Part shown: piece by piece, positions 9,932-46,389 of the stretch | How positions within the stretch are numbered: position 1 is the stretch's first letter | Layout of the letters: each line of letters begins with the position of its first letter | Assembly: GCF_018873765.1 (NCBI RefSeq) | Contig: NC_057925.1 | Location: 48,930,010-48,994,009 of the forward strand | Source: Telopea speciosissima | Lineage: Eukaryota > Streptophyta > Magnoliopsida > Proteales > Proteaceae | Direction of reading: 5' to 3' | Length of the DNA: 64,000 nt | Position numbers and translations under genes: made by a program | Notes under the pieces: model-generated | Told to the model about the DNA's origin: nothing | What the model saw: the letters and a program-made list of their open reading frames with translations, nothing else | Database searches by the model: none

Positions 9932-12900
9932 TTAAGGGATTGACTGCAAGATCATCCTCTCATCTGATTCTAATCTGCGGTAAAGGCCGCTTAGATGATC
10001 CACAAAAGCCGTAAATGACTGCTTTAATTGCTCGGCTTTCTTGAACTCTTTGGTTCCACATAAGATTAACTTTATATCATCAAATTCAGCATTTCTATCC
10101 CTTTGTTCATCCTGCAAAATGTTGAGGGATGATTTTGATACCACATTAAACAATTAAAATCATTACCCAAAAAATTATTCAAGTACATGAAATCATCTTG
10201 CTGCCCTTCTATGTACGATACTGTTTCATCGAACCTCTTTGGTGAGAAATATGATAGACTAAGAAAATCAAGAGAATGAAAGTGATTCCGGCCAGGATCA
10301 AATGTGGTATGGCAGAAACATATTTTATTATGTGAACAATTTTGACCAAAACTTAAGCTTGTGTGGCACATCATAAATTTACTTGAACTCATTCGTATTG
10401 AAAGACGCTAGATTTCCCCAACATGCACTCTTAAGTATTCAAAAACTAACCTCAGATTTCAACATTATACCCCCAAATGATGTTTGAAATGCTCCGTGTC
10501 TCAATATCTTCTCAGCCATCACCCATGGTCTGCCATTAATGTAGGAAAAACAATCATTAAGAGGTTACAGAACACATTATATATAAGTTATGACTACTAG
10601 ATTAGACTCTTCAAACGCCATTAAGTTGCAAACAAATGCAGTCATGGATGCAAGATAAATCTTCAAACAAGTTCTCTGATATCCCAAAGAAACCTTTGAT
10701 TCAAGAGTCAATAAGGTGATAACAACAGTTCCAAAAATTTTGGTAGTTCATTTGATAGATCCATTCACTCGGACAAAGCAGAAATGAGACCTTCGGCTTG
10801 AGTTATGCAACCATTTGTGAGAGTCCAATGCCACGAATTTGTCAGCAAGGTTTGTCCATGGAGGGTGAGTCAGAGCCTAAGATCAGGTTGAGAGACCTTT
10901 TTTTTGTGGGGGTAGGGGGAAGAGTGCACACACATGGTAGTAGGGGACGAGGGGGGGGGGTTTATACATCAAGAAGGCATGAACAATATAACGTATATAA
11001 TTCAAATGTTGAGTAAGGTTACATTCAAAACATTAAAGAATAGATTCCACTTATGTTTCAAGGTTTGAGCCTAAACCATTTAAACATAGAGCTAGAACTA
11101 CTTCTATAGATGAAGATCCTCAGTTCGAGACAGCATATGTAGAGACAGCATATGTAGAGAGGCACATAAAAAATGCCAATGTTTTCCATCCTTCAAAAGG
11201 AATAGAGTAGCATTTAGGCATTCAATTAAGCAACACTAAAAAATGACAGTATTGAAGATAAATGAACTACCAACATAGGAAAAACATAATCTGTACGTAT
11301 GCTCGAAGCTTTTATTATACAGAGGCAGTATTAAAGATAACAATCAGCATTATACCTTCCCCTTGATGACATGACGATGTGAGCGGGATCATGCAGAAAT
11401 TCATTGATCTTTTCAAGTTTCTCTCTGCTATCTGCAACAATGGCTCCTCTTGTAAATGTTTCCGGTGACAAGCTTGGAAACACATAAGCATGAGTCAATA
11501 CAGAAGTATGTCTATAAATAAAATCCACAACTGCAAAGGGGGATAAATCCTTTTCCATATTTTCAATAAGAATAAAATGAAAATCCCCTGTTTCTTCTGT
11601 CTCCATTGGCAAAGGTTCACCTCCTAAATCCATATCTTCTCCAATCTTTCCTCTACAGTAACTAATGCTCCCTGCGAATATATTTACAGAATTATGATCT
11701 TTATTGTATTGAATAGAATAAGTACTTCTCAAAAATAAACTAACCTTTATATGTCCATGCCGTACACCTAGTTTGAATGCTACGTTTTTTACCCTGTAAA
11801 GAGAACATAGCTAACATCAAACAAACATAGGACGGAAGCCAAACCACAACAGATAAGCAAGTCTTCAGTGTGTGAGTGTGCTTATGGTAGAGTTTTCCAC
11901 AAAATAACTTACCAGTACTTTACTAGTACAACCAGCTGTACTTTGTTTGCGTTGAACAGTTGAGTCATGATTTCCATTAGAAGCATCTTTGCAGATTGAA
12001 CCACCACTTCTGGGGATGGAAAAAGTGCTGGGTGAAGCCATTTCCAGTTTCTCTCTTGATATCTTCAAAAAAGATGCCAATGTAGCATTCCCTTCTCCCC
12101 CTCCAGATTGGATTATGCAAATATTTCCAATTTTAGTTTGTGTATATATCCCATCAAGAGGGCCATGGCGCCATAAAACCTTGAATTCACATGAGCATTC
12201 CTCTTCCCCATTAACATAATAGTGTTCTTTATGATCCACCTGCCATAATATAACCTACAATCAGTTACATTACTCCACTCAACTCAGCAAGTATTAATCC
12301 TCCTACTTGGGATCATGTCATCATTCCTTTCCCCTGTATTTAAAGTCAGTCATTATGGAATGCTAAGGTCTGAAAAAGCACTTAAGAGGCCATTGTTCTC
12401 TGATCACAATCTGAAGTCTATAAGATAACATGCCCAATTTGTAGATAAATCTTTATAAGCTATGTACTCTGCTAAGAACAAATCATTTAAGAGTTCCATT
12501 GAAAAAATTATTAAAAAGGGGTAGCAGTAATTGTTGGGAAAAACGTTGCCTTGGTTTCCCACTAGTGTGTAAGTCATTGGAGGAAATACGACAACATAAT
12601 ATATCGTGAATAGTAATTGTAAATAGTACCTGTGAATGGTAACTATGTGGGGCCCACGTATGCACAAAGTGATACCACACAAAAAATGATAAAGCAAACT
12701 CAGAAACACAAGTATTTACGTGGTTCATCTATGCCTACATCCACGGGCATAATTGGGACTTTTTCACTATGAGAGAACTGAGAGAATAACAATACAAGTA
12801 ACAATACTTTGGATTTAAACCGAAACCCAACCCTATATCAAAAACCGGATACCCCTTGTACACCCTATCTCAACTCACACTCTCAAACCCTTGAAGAGAA

Positions 12901-15900
12901 TATCAAAAACCCAATACTCCACAAGCTCTCACCCATTACAGCTCACTTGTTCACCTCTTGAACTTCTTGTTGTTCAGTGTATGGAGTTTTTCCCTCCTTC
13001 CCTATTTATAGGGAGAACAAATTAAGAGGGAGACAAAATAGCCTCTTGTAGCACCATCCTTGGACTGCCCACACGCAAGCACTGAATCGGCGTTGTGTTA
13101 ACACGCAAGCACCGCCCCCACTTATTCAAATCCTTTGTGTATCTCTTTCCTTATACACATCACTCCTCTCCTCTTTTCTTTTCATTTCATTGATTTTGTT
13201 TTGACTTTTGCTCCCCCAACCAACTTTGGTGGACACACGGGCACCTCTCCATGTGAGGAGGACCCCAACAAACTCCCCATCCAACTCATAAGGAGGAATC
13301 TCATGATCTTGGTATGTTAACGTCGGTGTATTCATACATAACCTCTTTACCATAATAATCACCAAACTCCTCACATTGTAGGAGTGGCCGCCGCATCTTA
13401 CCAATCCTACAACATGGTTCATTTGTCTGTAAACAGCTTACTTACACCATTCTTCACCCTGCGCATTCTCAATGCATGTACCATTCTATTTGCATCATTG
13501 TCTATGTACAATATCGTATACACCACTTGTTTTGCAATTCTGTGTGCACCCAATGCGCCATTCTATGCAACGCTAGTCCCTCGAATGAACAATGACTTTT
13601 GATCATGGTACAAATCCAACTTCGCACCGATCACTCGTACTTCAAAATGCCGCTACTCCACTTGCACGGCTTCAATGTTCATTGGTATTTCAGTTTACTT
13701 TCATATACTAATGTGGTGGAACTCTGGTAAGCGGGTATCATCATTGCCATCGACACCATCTGCATCCATCATCTTGTTGTATCTTTCACTCATCATTTGT
13801 GTTATGGGAGAGGATTTGGAACAAGACCAATGAGGCATTAATACAAACACTTGAGGTGTAACAGGAACTAGATAACATTGTTGTCTGAATAGTCGGCAAC
13901 GGTGGTACTATTTCCATCTGTCTTCTCCTACTCATCTCTTTAGCTTTTTGCACTCCTTCATATGCCCCTCCTTTTTGCAATAGTGGCATGTAATCCCTTT
14001 CCTTAGTTGGTTTTTGCTTCTCACCTTGTTCTCCATGACAGTTGCTTCTTCTTGAGGTTTGTTCAAGGATCCACTTATTGTCTCTTCCTTAAAGAGACTT
14101 CCCGTTACTTGACTCATTGTGAGTTTCCTGTCTGGTGCCGAATTACTAAGTGGTATCTCCCAACTATCGGGTAACGAACTGAGAAGTAATAGGGCTTGCA
14201 ATTCGTCGTCAAACACTATTTTCATTAAGGAGAGTTGGTTCACAATGCTTTGCACTTCGTTCAAATGTTCTACAATTGAGCTTCCTTCTTTGTACTTCCG
14301 GTTCACAAGCTTCCTTATCAAGAAAACTTTGTCGCCGACAGTTTTCCTCTGGTACAAGTTTTCTAGTTTCTTCCATAGTGAGTGTGCTGACGTCTCTGTG
14401 GATACGTGGTGGAAAATGGCATCGTCCATAAATTGTCGTATAAATCCGACGGCTTTCCGATCCAGGATCTTCCAATCAGCGTCAGACATTTTTTCTGGTT
14501 TCGCCGCATCACTCTGTACAGGTGCATACAAGTCCTTGCAGTAAAACAAGTCCTCCATCTTCGCTTTTCAGGTTATCCAATTGCCTCCATTCAAGCTGAT
14601 CATCCTTATTGATGTAGTTCCCTCCATCGCTATTACACACTCTCACACGAACTAGGTTGAGATACCACTTGTTGGGAAAAACGATGCCTCGGTTTCCCAC
14701 ATGTGTGTAAGTCACTGAAGGAAATATGACAACACAATATATCCCAAGCAGCAACTGTAAATAGTATACATGAATAGTACCCCATGAATAGTAATTATGT
14801 GGGGCCCAAGTGTACACAAAGTGATAACACAAAAAAATGGTAAAAACAAACTCACAAACACAAGTATGTACGTGGTTCAGCTATGCCTACATCCACGGGT
14901 ATAATTGAGACTTTTTCATCATGAGAGAACTAAGAGAATAACAGTACAAGTAACAATACTTTGGATTTAAACCAAACAAAACCAAACCCAACCTTGTTTC
15001 CAAAATCATATACCCCTTGTATACCCTCTCTCAACTCACGCTCAAACCCTTGAAAAGAATATCAAAAACCCAATACTCCACAAACTTTCACACACCCACA
15101 GATCACTTGTTCACCTCTTGAACTTCTTGTTGTTCAGTATATGGAGTTCTTTCCTCCTTCCCTATTTATAGGGGGAACGAATCAAGAGGGAGACAAAATT
15201 GCCTCATGTACCACACTATCCTTACTGCCCACACGCAAGCGCCGAATCGGTGCCGTGTTGACAAATGATTAAGGGGTAGGCACCGCCCCCTCTCCTTTTC
15301 CTCTTCTTCTTTAATGGCCGGATTCAATTTTGGCCTTATACACATCACTCCTCTCCTCTTTTCATTTCATTTCATTTCTTTTGTTTTGACTTTTGCTCTC
15401 CCCACCGACTTTGGTGGACACACACGGCCCCCCCTCCATGTGAGGAGTGTAAGGGTATTTATGTAATATCCCTTTATATGTTCTCATATAATCCTACTTG
15501 TATTAATGCCCAGGCTGTGAGGGGCAATCTAGTAATTAGCCCATCTGACCTAAACCCTAGTTTTCCTATATATACTAGCTGGAGGCAGCAGTCTGGGTAT
15601 TCCAAACTAGATACTCAGGGTGTAATGCTTTAAGCAACTTTGTGCTTAAACCCTAAACCCTAACAATCTTAAAGCATTATTATTATTTTTTTTTTTCGTT
15701 TCTCTGCGATCAAGATCGACTTCGGCAGAATTGCGTTGAAGATCGCATTAAGATCGATCCTTGATTCGATTTTGGAGATCGTATGTGACGATTTTACAGG
15801 TTTTCTTCTGAGAGATTGGCGTAGGTTTTCCTTTGAGAAATCTGTTTCACGTCTTCGGCTTTAGGTGCGATCGTGGTTCACAATTTTGATTTGAGAGATC

Positions 15901-18900
15901 ACATTACGCTTGGAAGATCGTTTCTTGTTTCGGCTTTTGGACAATCGTACGTCACGATTGCAGTTCTCTCTAAGGCTTCATTTGATCAAAGCTTTTGGTT
16001 ATCTTTCCAAAGTATTTATTACGTTTCCAAAGCATTATTTGATATTGAAAGGCTTTTTGTCCTTTCTTCATCAAAAGGTTTTGATTTGATAGATTAAAAA
16101 AAAAAAAAAAAAACCATTAACTTGTCAGAGAAGGACGTTTGCTTTTGGATTCTTTTGCTTTTGATTCAATTTCAAAAGCCGAAGTGGTTTCCAGAAAGCT
16201 TTCTTCAAAGAGCATCGATTGGTTTCTTCTTTTTTTTTTTTATTTGAGAAAAGGATAAAAGCAACTTTTGGCAGAAATTTATTTTTGGGTTCGGCCATTA
16301 TCTGCGAGCAGCCAACATCCGCGCTAGCAGCCTGCATTAGCGTGTACATTACAAGTGTCGATACCGCTGCACCGTCGCGATCTTTTCCTCCTTCATCTAA
16401 ATCCAGGGTTCTCCATCTCAGGTGTGACTGTTCCTTGAGCATTTATTTTTTTTTATTTGATCTTTTGTTTGGGCATATAAACAAATCACTTAATATGGAG
16501 AAACACGCTGTTCCAATTGAGATGATCAAATTGGAAAGTTTTAGTGGCTCTGAGTTCAGTTCTTGGAAAAGGAAGACTCAGTTTGGACTGAAGTACCTTA
16601 ATATTTTCTACACTGTAGTAAATACTTTTTCTGATTGTACGGACCTAACTGAAGCCCAATGGATAAGTGATGAGGACTTTTGCAAAGACTACCTATTGAA
16701 CTGCCTGTCAGATAGGCTGGCAGAGACCTATAGTAAATATGAGTCTGCAAAAGAGATTTGGGAAAACCTAGAAGCCCAATTCAAAAAGGAGGAGGACCTA
16801 TCAAAAACTCATTTGGTTGACAAGTTTATGGACTTCAAGTTTCAAGAAGATAAGGAGATACTTCCACAAGTAACAGACTTTGAGAACTTGAGAACAAAAT
16901 TGAACCAAGAAAACATCCCCGTTGTTGATGCATTCTTAGTGGGTGCAATTATCTTTAAGTTACCCTCTACCTGGCATTCCTTTAAAACTGAGATGCACAG
17001 AAAGAAAACACAAGTGAGGCTAGATGATCTCAAACGGTTCATTAGAATCGAAGATGAGAACAGAACCAGGAATAACTTGGAGATGGTGAAACAACAACGA
17101 GCATCGCCAATTTGGTTTCACAACCCAAGAAATATCCTAGGCGATCCAAGCCACCTAAGAAAGAACCCCAGCAGTTGGAGGCCAAAAAGCCTAATTTTAA
17201 AAAGAGGGGCAAGTGCCGCAATCGTGGAAAGTGGGGTCACTATGCATCCGAGTGTAGGGGTCCTAAGAAAGGGAACACGACACACCACGAAGGAAGTTCA
17301 CATCTTGGTGGACAAGATCGAGCCTACTAACTTTGTTGCCATGATTGGCAAGGGTAAGGGGTTGGCATACATCTTGATTGGTGGTTAGACTCGGAGCGAC
17401 TTGTCATGTTTGCAATAGCAAGGACACCGCTCACCGATGTTGTTCAAGAGGTGATCCACATGCAAATGGAGACGTCGTGGAAGTGGCTCAACAAGGGACA
17501 ACGAACCTGGTTCTCTCATCGGGTAAAATATTAACTTTGAAAAATGTTAAAATCTTTCCTGGTTTTGAAAAGAATTTAATTTCCATTGGAATTTTGCTTG
17601 ATCTTGCATGTCTATTACTTTTAGTAGTGGTAGAGTAACATTGTCGTTAACTCCTTTTATTTTGGATGTGCTTATAATTTGAATGGTATGTTTAGGTTGA
17701 GTTTAGCTAATGAGACAATAAACCAGGTTAACCATAATTTACTTGATCCCAAAATACTACATTGTAGGTTAGGACATGTGAACTATAGGAAAATGCTCAA
17801 ACTAGCTAAAACTCATAATTTACCATTAGACACTTCAATTAGATTTAACAGATGTGAAGTGTGTGCTCAAACTAAAATAACTAGAAAACCGTTCGACCGG
17901 TTTCTAGGAGCACTCAACTTCTTGAACTTATACATTCGACATTTGTGACTTTAAAAGCTACACAACTAGAGGAGGTCGGAAGTATTTGATAACATTTATA
18001 GACGATTTTTCTAGATATTGTCATTTATACCGTTAAAATCTAAAGATGAAGCTTTTGAAAAATTTAAAATTTTCAAGAATAGGGTAGAAAATCAGTTGAA
18101 CTTGAAAATTAAAAGATTTAGAAGTGATAGGGAGGAGAATACAAATTGACGAGTTCAAGGAATTCGTGCCTCTGCAGCATAATCCTTGAAACTCTGCTCC
18201 TTACTCACCTCAATCAAATGGCATAGTGAAAGAAAGAACAGGACGTTAACAGAGATGTTAAACTCCATGTTATTGACTGTATGCCCTCTTGCTATTGGGG
18301 AGAAGCGAGTGTTGATCGCAAATCACATTCTAAATAGACTACCACATTCAAAACGACTTCTACACCTTATGAACTATGGCATAATCATCCCTGTAGATAT
18401 GACACTCTTAAGGTTTGGTGTGTAGCTTATGTTAGGATACAAGACCCTAGGAGACCTAAGGTGGGAACTAGAACAAACACTTGTGTATATCTTGGTTGTG
18501 CGAAGACAGTCTTGCGACGATTTTTGGATCTATCAACCAATGTGGTGATAGAATCTAGGGATGCTATATTCTTTGAGGATAAATTCCTTAGAGATAAAGG
18601 CGACCTTGCCTGGTTTGGTGAAGTGGTTACTGAATCACCTTTGGAACTCGAACCAATTGTTTTCGACACTACTCCCACAATGCTCCTTGAATCGAATCTA
18701 GAAGAGTATCTACTAGAGATCGAGTACCCAAGAATTTTGGTGAGGATTTTGTGACCTACCATTTAGAGGCTGATCCATCCACCTATAAGGAAGCGATGAG
18801 ATCTAGGGACTCCCTGTTATGGAAAGAAGCCATTGATGAGGAAATGAGCTCTTTAATGCGAGAATGAGACCGGCACCTTGTTGATCCGCCTAGAGGGGCC

Positions 18901-21900
18901 AAGACAATAGGGTGTAAGTGGAGTCGAAGAAGAAACTTAATCCGGATGGGTCTATAGCCAGGTATAAAGCACGATTAGTAGCTAAGGGCTATAAACAGGT
19001 GAGAGGGATAGATTATTTTGACATCTACTCTCCGGTCTGCCATTTGGCAACAATAAGGATTCTTCTTGCCATAGCATCTATTGAGCACTATGTTGTGCAT
19101 CAAATGGATGTAAAAACGGCTTTCCTTAATGGAGACCTAATAGAAGAAATCTACATGAACCAACCTGAAGGGTTTGTCATGGAAGGTTCGGAAAAAAGAG
19201 TTTGTAAATTAAACAAATCTCTCTATGGTCTTAAACAAGCACCTAAATTGTGGCATGAGAAGTTTGACAAGACAAGAAAGAGCTTTGGTTTTCAAACCAA
19301 GAACTCGGATAAGTGCCTTTATTTTTGTCGAGTCAAACAAGGTCGCGATTATTTGCTTGTATGTAGACGACATGTTGATTCTAGGTTCTGATCTCTCTGT
19401 AGTGAGTGACATTAAAGAAACCTTGTCCAAAGAATTCAACATGAAAGATCTTGGTGTGGTAGACACCATTCTTGGAATGAGAGTAAGCTTCAGTGAGCAA
19501 GGGATCACCCTTAATCAGACTCATTACATTGAGAAGCTACTTTCTAGTTGGAGATACAGTGATTGTAAACCGATTGAGACACCCTATGACTACAACAAAC
19601 GGTTGAAACCTAACACAGGTGACACCGTGAATCAGTTAGATTATTCTAAACTGATTGGTAGTCTCATGTATGCAATGAGTTGCACTAGGCCAGACATAGC
19701 CTTTACGGTAGGCATGCTGAGTCGTTTCACTAGTAATCCTGGAAAAGAGCATTGGGATGCCCTATCGAGGCTGATGAGATACCTTAAGGGTACTCAAGGT
19801 TATGCTTTATGTTATAATGGACATCCTCCAACTTTGGAAGGATATTCTGATGCATCTTGGTGCTCAGATTTGGGAGACAGCAGATCCACCAGTGGTTATG
19901 TATTTACACTAGGAGGAGCAGCTGTAGCATGGAAATCCAAAAGACAGACTAGTATTGCTCTGTCATCTATGGAATCGGAACTTTATGCTCTAGCTTCTGC
20001 GGGAGATGAAGCAGAGTGGATAAAGGATCTGATTATGGATATTCCATTGAGGAGTTTTAAGTTAAACTCTATATCTATATTCTGTGATAATCAAGCAACA
20101 AAGACGATTGTGAATAACTCACTCTTTAATGGTAAGAGGAGACACATCAGGCTGAAACAGGCCATGCTGAATTATAGAACAGAACAAGGGATTATCACTT
20201 TGATTGATGTGAGATCGAAGGATAATAAGGCAGATGCCCTTACAAAGGGATTGAACAAAGATCGAACATTCAAAACTACAGGGGAGATGGGGTTAAAGAC
20301 CATTTAGTCAGGTCTTAACCTAACCCGATATTATTTTGAATTATTTGAATCTCATCTAGCCTTGGTAAGCATTCGGGACAGTTTACATGTTTCAGATAAC
20401 TTAGTTAGGTTACTAAGTATGGGGGTTTGTGAAACCATTCCAAACTTGATGGGGTAGCAAATTTTCATGTGAAGTCTCCTTACTTTGTTATTCCACAAAG
20501 GAATATGAAAAATGTCTGATATGTTTCAATGATATTGTGCTAGTCTTTATGTCATTCCAAATTTGATGACATGTCTTTCATAGTATGGTGTACCATTCCA
20601 AATTTGATGATACAACATAAATCTATGACTGATATGACGAATACAGTATTCCAAATGGAAACATGGTATGGTCCTTATGATAGAGACTATATAGGATCGA
20701 GTTCTTGTAAAGAAACTTGATGATGATGCTTATTGTTTTTTGATTTACCTTCAGCCATATATGAAATGTACTAAGTTCTTATTGTTGAACTAGATACTAT
20801 TGTGCAAATGATTGAATTCATAATATCTTATGAAATTCATATTTGACAAATTACAGAGAATGGCGAAGATGGAGGAGAACGGTTGAATCTGGATCTCGAT
20901 GAGGATGACTTACTTGATGAGTGAAGTCACATGGATTGCAAGGACTTTTTCTTTTGATTATTTCTTTTGGTTTAGCCACTTGCATGTGGAACTTCGGATT
21001 TATTGTTGGGTTTAGTTTTGATCTAAAACCCTAGTTTTATTTCTTGAAGTCTACTTATTTCTTATTTGATTTATTGGATTATTGATATTCAATTTATATT
21101 GATTCAATTACTGATTGAACAATGGTTCCTATACATGTGTATTGGATATATGTAGAACATAGGAGGAGATTGTAAGGGTATTTATGTAATATCCCTTTAT
21201 ATGTTCTTATATAATCCTACTTGTATTAATGCCCAGGCTGTGAGGGGCAATCTAGTAATTAGCCCATCTGACCTAAACCCTAGTTTTCCTATATATACTA
21301 GCTGGAGGCAGCAGTCTGGGTATTCCAAACTAGATACTCAGGGTGTAATGCTTTAAGCAACTTTGTGCTTAAACCCTAAACCCTAACAAGGAGGACCCCA
21401 ACAGCAATTACCTTCAATCTATCAAAGCAATCAAAGAAGTAATTGTATTTCAATCAGAGAATATGAACAGTAGGTTTACAGGTGAAGGAATTACTTAAAC
21501 TCACTTCACTTCCATCACTCAATAAACAAGCACAAGCAGATGTACGAAACAGAGCAATATTTCAAATGAATGTAACAAGAAGCAGAGAGGCTCGTAGAAC
21601 AAAAAAGCGAAGGGTACACTTACGTTGTCGATGAAGGCATCATAGAAGAGAAGGTCGTCATCTGAATACGTATGAGAGATACAGACCACCATCCCTTGAC
21701 TGACTTGGGAACACTGGTGGTCTTGCAACTGAACCGACGCCGGGCGGAACCGGTACTTGAAAGTATTGATCTCTGTGAGTGTCTTGAACTCAGAAGCACA
21801 GAAATGTTCATCGAATTCTTGGGAGAAATCATTGTAATTGACGGTAAGGGTGTCTCCCTGAAGAAGCAACTGAACTCCATACCAGGCGTCGTCTGTGGGG

Positions 21901-45673: not shown

Positions 45674-46389
45674 GATTGAGCTAGGCAGAAATATCAGATC
45701 TACCCTGTGGTAACAAAAACAAAAGCTGGAATATAGCAACCAACTGCCCTTAAACCAAAACCAAGAAGCAAGGTTTAAGAAAAAACCCTAAGAAAGGTAA
45801 TCGATCTGGTTTTAGGGGTCTCCAAATGCTGAGAAAAATAACTGCAGATATAAGGTCTTCAAAGGCTGAGAAAAATCTGCATCGATGGTACTGATTGTTG
45901 ATGAAGTAGCTTCTCCAGAAAAAAACCAAAAATTGACAAAATTAGGGTTTGTTGTGAAAAACCCTGAAGGTAGATCGATTGAGGAGGTGCGTTGATCTAG
46001 AGAAGAAAACCTGTGATAGCAGCTGTCCAATAGAAACTGCAGGAATGGATCCCAATAATCAAACCAGTGTCAAATTGATAGAGGAGACTGATCTGCAGGT
46101 GGGGAGAACTCCAAACAAAATCGCAGAGGAAAGTGCAGCAGCTATCGATCCAAAAAGCTTCTTAAAGCATTAAGGGATGAGGTGATTAATTAGGGCAGCA
46201 TCTAAACAACAGATCACCTCATTAGATCTGCCCTAATTCAGAAGAAGAAACCAAAAAAAAAGTGAAGAAGATCGAGTGGAAGAAGGCGGGGGGAAGATGG
46301 GATCGAATGAAAGAAAAAAAACAGAGAAAACTGAGAATGAGCCAGAAATCGAGAAAGCTGTTCTTAGATCAGATTCTTCTCTGATACCA

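Follow-up and report, generated by a model that had tools for sequence, protein, structure and literature searches.

A broken copy of a probably self-priming Ty1/copia retrotransposon in the genome of Telopea speciosissima

Structure of element B and its primer/site pairing

The window analysed here, the whole 64,000-nucleotide stretch at positions 48,930,010 to 48,994,009 (forward strand) of contig NC_057925.1 in the Telopea speciosissima assembly GCF_018873765.1, contains a Ty1/copia long terminal repeat (LTR) retrotransposon, here called element B, on the plus strand at 15448-21388. Just past its 5' LTR, element B carries a sequence exactly complementary to a segment of that same LTR. On the comparative sequence evidence presented below, element B is very probably a defective copy of a plant Ty1/copia retrotransposon that primes itself, with a primer probably located inside the leader.

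The element is bounded by the target site duplication AGGAG (15443-15447, repeated at 21389-21393). Its 5' LTR of 218 nt, TGTAAGGG...CCCTAACA (15448-15665), and its 3' LTR (21171-21388) are identical at 217 of 218 positions, with one difference (99.5%). A presumed TATA box, TATATATA, is found at 15567-15574. Between the LTRs, matches to family models mark a gag region (Retrotran_gag_2, 16489-17388) and a fragment of the SH3-like domain of the copia polyprotein (SH3_retrovirus, 18338-18754). They are followed by a broken region at 18918-20307, in which the overlapping frames 18918-19391 and 19213-20307 carry an RVT_2 reverse transcriptase (RT) and a presumed RNase H region, although RNase H itself gave no family-model match in the domain scan. 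A polypurine tract, AGGAGGAGA (21161-21169), precedes the 3' LTR.

The proposed self-primer, TAATGCTTTAAG, occupies 15623-15634 in the 5' LTR, with a presumed cut after 15634, and a second copy is found at 21346-21357 in the 3' LTR. The putative primer binding site, CTTAAAGCATTA (15668-15679), is its exact complement over 12 bp and starts two bases past the LTR end, from which it is separated by the spacer AT (15666-15667). The preliminary description of this locus had noted both this complementarity and the lack of a TGG-starting transfer RNA (tRNA) site; both hold, with no TGG among the first bases past the 5' LTR. By position and length, the pairing (12 bp, starting after 2 bp) falls within the published rule for self-priming, namely complementarity to the 5' LTR over 10 bp or more, beginning 0-5 bp past the LTR (PMC6317226).

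A match of at least 12 was obtained in 2 of 20,000 dinucleotide shuffles of the LTR and downstream sequence, and in 12 of 20,000 when the LTR alone was shuffled. When an LTR end was pretended at each window position, 12 was reached at 169 plus-strand and 175 minus-strand positions, out of 63,742 per strand, counts that include palindromes and A/T runs. A chance origin of the pairing is rejected on the shuffle counts in B together with the covariation across families described below. The only further occurrence of the 12-mer CTTAAAGCATTA in the window, at 46161-46172, lies in the apparent leader of a minus-strand copia element with a tRNA-Met-type primer site and is taken as a coincidence.

Conservation of the pairing in the Telopea genome

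The genome (822.9 Mb, 1287 contigs) was searched with the LTR and leader of B. The sample consisted of the best 40 of 1315 candidates, one of which was B itself; the other 39 were examined and, being drawn from the top of the ranking, are the copies most like B. The pairing was exact over at least 12 bp in 35 of these 39, and the AT spacer was kept in all of them. Eleven of the 12 site positions were invariant across the 39 copies and the remaining one was kept in 38, while the two bases 3' of the site matched B in only 19 and 15 copies, respectively. Since the flanking bases vary in this way, conservation of the site stops at the last paired base. In the four exceptions (L032, L034, L035 and L052) the 5' LTR is altered and TAATGCTTTAAG is kept in each 3' LTR, suggesting that the pairing was probably intact at insertion. 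Thus, relatives lacking the pairing, which according to the preliminary description would have spoken against self-priming, were not found among these copies. Genome-wide, there are 287 exact AACANNCTTAAAGCATTA junctions, of which 230 have the exact primer 20-36 nt before AACA. For compensatory change within the family, one pattern was counted, with 5 exact copies, which supports no conclusion.

In four copies (L066, L067, L068 and L070), clustered substitutions and small deletions were observed in the 5' LTRs, mostly absent from their own 3' LTRs. The target duplications match in three of the four, and the changes may represent either assembly error or real one-sided change.

Covariation of primer and site in related families

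Protein searches were performed with the RT of B and with that of the relative L001, in each case taking the best 150 of more than 21,000 candidates, and 31 places were selected by their protein matches, with their DNA still unseen (28 out of one list and 3 out of the other). The relative L111, with an LTR of 735 nt, has boundaries set from both LTRs, which are 96.5% identical over 745 columns. Its LTR ends in ...TTTTTAACA, followed by AT and then by CTTAAGACAGTATTTGC, which is exactly complementary over 17 bp to GCAAATACTGTCTTAAG in its own LTR. Among the 31 stretches, an LTR end was visible in 24, each of which has a site that pairs with the LTR of the same element, in some cases with mismatches. 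The seven stretches without a visible LTR end (L119, L120, L122, L130, L134, L137 and L140) were not counted; exact B-type junctions occur near, yet outside, the stretches of L120 and L122.

Seven distinct primers were found, in the families of B, L111, L112, L116, L117, L133 and L138. When the sites were compared with the last 215 nt of each LTR, the site of each family paired with its own LTR over 12-17 bp and with the LTRs of the other families over at most 8. The 26 junctions (the 24 together with B and L111) comprise 15 distinct primer/site pairs, in which 173 of 180 cells are standard pairs; shuffled pairings gave a mean of 137 and a maximum of 157, and 173 was reached in none of 2000 shuffles. 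The preliminary description had proposed to look for covariation of the pairing in other family members. More than one type of Watson-Crick pair occurs at 9 of the 12 pair positions, and L126 and its siblings differ in both primer and site, in a matching way. In 22 of the 26 junctions, at least 10 uninterrupted standard pairs (G-U included) extend from the first base of the site. As a control, 12 distinct places of tRNA-Met type (13 pattern matches, not all verified LTR ends) were examined, and in the same comparison they did not exceed 6 bp.

In an RT tree of 21 rows, the B family groups with L111/L001 and with L002/L003 (support 82/85), the inner order being unresolved. L002 and L003 carry tRNA-Met-type primer sites, and no LTR was recognisable in a search of L001 (RT 65% identical). 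Scans of viral contigs for relatives found none. The contigs of L001, L002 and L003, which are filed under Robertmurraya, Streptomyces and Solirubrobacter, respectively, contain Ty1/copia sequence and probably represent plant contamination.

Pairing, conservation and covariation are direct observations. At the level of sequence, the comparative evidence is decisive for the pairing, and self-priming in plant Ty1/copia elements is strongly supported by the covariation between families, which provides strong independent evidence for it.

Position of the primer and start of the transcript

The start of a transcript is expected about 32 nt 3' of the TATA box. The preliminary description had cautioned that the complementary stretch lies rather far past the TATA box of B, and this caveat is borne out: the TATA box lies 56 nt before the primer in B, 156 nt in L111 and 131 nt in L133, and the remaining four families showed no TATA[AT]A within 330 nt. 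The predicted start in B thus falls near 15599, with the primer beginning about 24 nt into the RNA, and by the same rule the primer would begin about 124 nt (L111) and 99 nt (L133) into the RNA. A transcript start upstream of 15623 is therefore likely on the sequence, and because the TATA box lies far upstream, the primer is probably internal rather than at the 5' end of the RNA. Such a start counts only against a 5'-terminal primer and not against self-priming as such.

The preliminary description had likened B to Tf1, in which the primer is 5'-terminal and three duplexes are formed (PMC10085805). Priming from the element's own LTR is borne out by the covariation between families; priming from the very 5' end of the transcript is opposed by the TATA positions. 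A strict mechanism of the Tf1 type, in which the transcript of B begins at the primer and its first nucleotides prime, thus appears unlikely. It would account well for the predicted folds, as the 12-bp pairing dominates, with a probability of about 0.95, only for RNA starts at 15619, 15621 and 15623. However, beyond the TATA distances, the primer 3' end lies at a variable distance from the LTR end (30-190 nt across families), and the bases just past the site are unconserved and give no support for the further duplexes of Tf1 (PMC10085805). The two additional duplexes were also absent from the predicted folds of B, in which no dedicated search for them was made.

An internal primer raises the question of how its 3' end forms, as the cut must then fall within the leader, either in cis or in trans on a second RNA. 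The LTRs of the families barely align otherwise (best match 30 nt, E 0.018), but TTAAG or a close variant, followed by G-R-N-A-G, is found at the primer in six of the seven family representatives, B being the exception, and GGCA lies 5' of the primer in three of the seven, again not in B. These motifs around the primer are a possible cutting signal. We consider the chances about evenly balanced that self-priming families cut the leader, either in cis or in trans, tens to more than 100 nt past its 5' end, the place being marked in most of them by TTAAG/G-R-N-A-G; if so, their primer would be made in a different way from that of Tf1. A hairpin at the cut site was considered as a general signal and rejected, as it was shuffle-stable in only two of the eight junctions tested (L111, 3/300; L133, 5/300).

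Proposed mechanism and alternative explanations

We infer the RNA start, the cut and the priming from these comparisons, and propose the following course. In the RNA of B, nucleotides 15623-15634 of the 5' LTR would pair with the primer binding site at 15668-15679. By analogy with Tf1, a cut after 15634 by the RNase H of the element would leave a 3' OH, from which the RT would extend through the AT spacer first and the LTR end next, and the 3' end of the primer would thereby define where the linear DNA ends on the right. For a primer cut in cis, the first strand transfer would require a poly(A) site after 15635. During plus-strand synthesis the site could be rewritten from the primer, so that the two would drift together and remain matched.

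The junctions between the LTRs and the internal region are consistent with this proposal. In B and L111, AT is found at both of them (AT|TG next to the polypurine tract and CA|AT next to the site), and in B it directly precedes the 3' LTR at 21169-21170; the L117 family has AG instead of AT at the site. AT at both ends would be expected if the linear DNA begins at the 3' end of the primer and integrase removes two bases per end.

Several observations weigh against self-priming by B, or against the weight given to the comparisons. The predicted folds do not favour the pairing: from 15599, a competing 8-bp hairpin within the LTR, TTTAAGCA-ACTTTG-TGCTTAAA (15629-15650), which overlaps the 3' half of the primer, is preferred and the pairing probability of the primer is 0.03, with values of 0.02-0.16 for starts at 15595-15616. 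With this competition, an active mechanism may depend on a chaperone, on trimming of the leader or on pairing in trans. The pol of B is broken by many stops and frame changes; its LTRs are nevertheless 99.5% identical, which suggests mobilisation in trans of a copy that had been broken before. The seven non-standard cells are distributed over L113 (1), L114 (2), L136 (1), L138 (1) and L142 (2), and the L133 and L138 families are represented by one copy each. The LTR ends of the 24 shorter relatives were set by the ACA end, by sibling alignment or by the pairing itself, so that the comparison is partly circular, and both LTRs were compared only in B, L111 and 12 B-family copies. These are 12 of 15 copies, as the full LTR pair was unmatched in the stretch for L071, L076 and L078; one of the 12, L079, keeps the primer in its 5' LTR and has lost it from its 3' LTR.

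An alternative hypothesis accepts the pairing but gives it a role in RNA dimerisation, cyclisation, packaging or translation control, with another RNA acting as primer. The CTTAAG core is palindromic in four of the seven representatives (on both sides in L111, L112 and L116 and on the site side in L138), and the primer is also present in the 3' LTR, so that end-to-end or RNA-RNA pairing would be possible. However, the site starts 2 nt past the LTR, where minus-strand DNA should begin, AT is found at both DNA ends and no other primer site is visible past the LTR of B; we regard this explanation as very unlikely. That an unrecognised tRNA or tRNA half binds the site, the LTR match being incidental, is most improbable: tRNA-Met or half-tRNAs do prime most other plant Ty1/copia groups (PMC6317226) and AACANNTGGTATCAGAGC has 846 matches in the genome, but no TGG stands just past the LTR of B and in seven families the site changes together with its own LTR, each of which a fixed cellular RNA would not track.

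Relation to known priming systems

The preliminary description knew of no established case of self-priming in a plant copia element. This has to be amended, as Neumann et al. 2019, in a survey of plant LTR elements, put the share with predicted self-priming at 12% and considered it likely in two lineages, Tcn1 and TAR, the latter including Houba and Osr-1 (PMC6317226); for TAR this is given there as a prediction and not as an experiment. Among the open-access papers listed in literature searches, no title or abstract opening reported an experimental case of self-priming in a plant copia element, and a word search of a 2025 review of the plant retrotransposon cycle, which describes tRNA-type priming, returned no mention of self-priming (PMC12786077).

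Like TAR (REXdb; Houba, Osr-1), B is a plant Ty1/copia element, appears to have no tRNA site and falls under the published complementarity rule (PMC6317226). In addition, it shares with TAR, as with other Ty1/copia lineages, a Ty1/copia gag (Retrotran_gag_2), an RVT_2 RT and a 5-bp target duplication. The LTRs of B and of its relative L111 differ greatly in length, at 218 and 735 nt. B appears to fit the kind predicted for TAR, to which it is likened by the self-priming rule. The kind itself was already predicted; what is added here is the covariation between families and the likely internal primer.

The Tf1/sushi elements of Ty3/gypsy (Tf1, Tf2, Tj1 and Tosmo) resemble B in using a primer from their own RNA and a site just past the 5' LTR (PMC10085805). 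B differs in being a Ty1/copia element, with a copia-type RT (RVT_2), and in its probably internal primer; no chromodomain was found in the four pieces of B scanned. Half-tRNA users are, like B, Ty1/copia elements, and their site lacks a match to the 3' end of an entire tRNA, as that of B appears to; Osser, Bryco and Gymco-II use half of tRNA-Met and Bianca half of tRNA-Ile (PMC6317226). Their site matches a tRNA half (PMC6317226), whereas that of B follows its own LTR.

If self-priming is used by these families, they would escape both the capture of retrotransposon DNA via the tRNA-Met primer site and control by tRNA fragments.

The neighbouring element A

Element B is inserted into an LTR of another element, here called element A, which lies on the minus strand (12531-15447 plus 21389-21400), and the AGGAG duplication lies within its CCATGTGAGGAGGACCCCAACA. 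Element A has a TGGTATC-type primer site and a gag frame at 13932-14567, while its LTRs leave scant space for pol, and it resembles a gag-only non-autonomous element.
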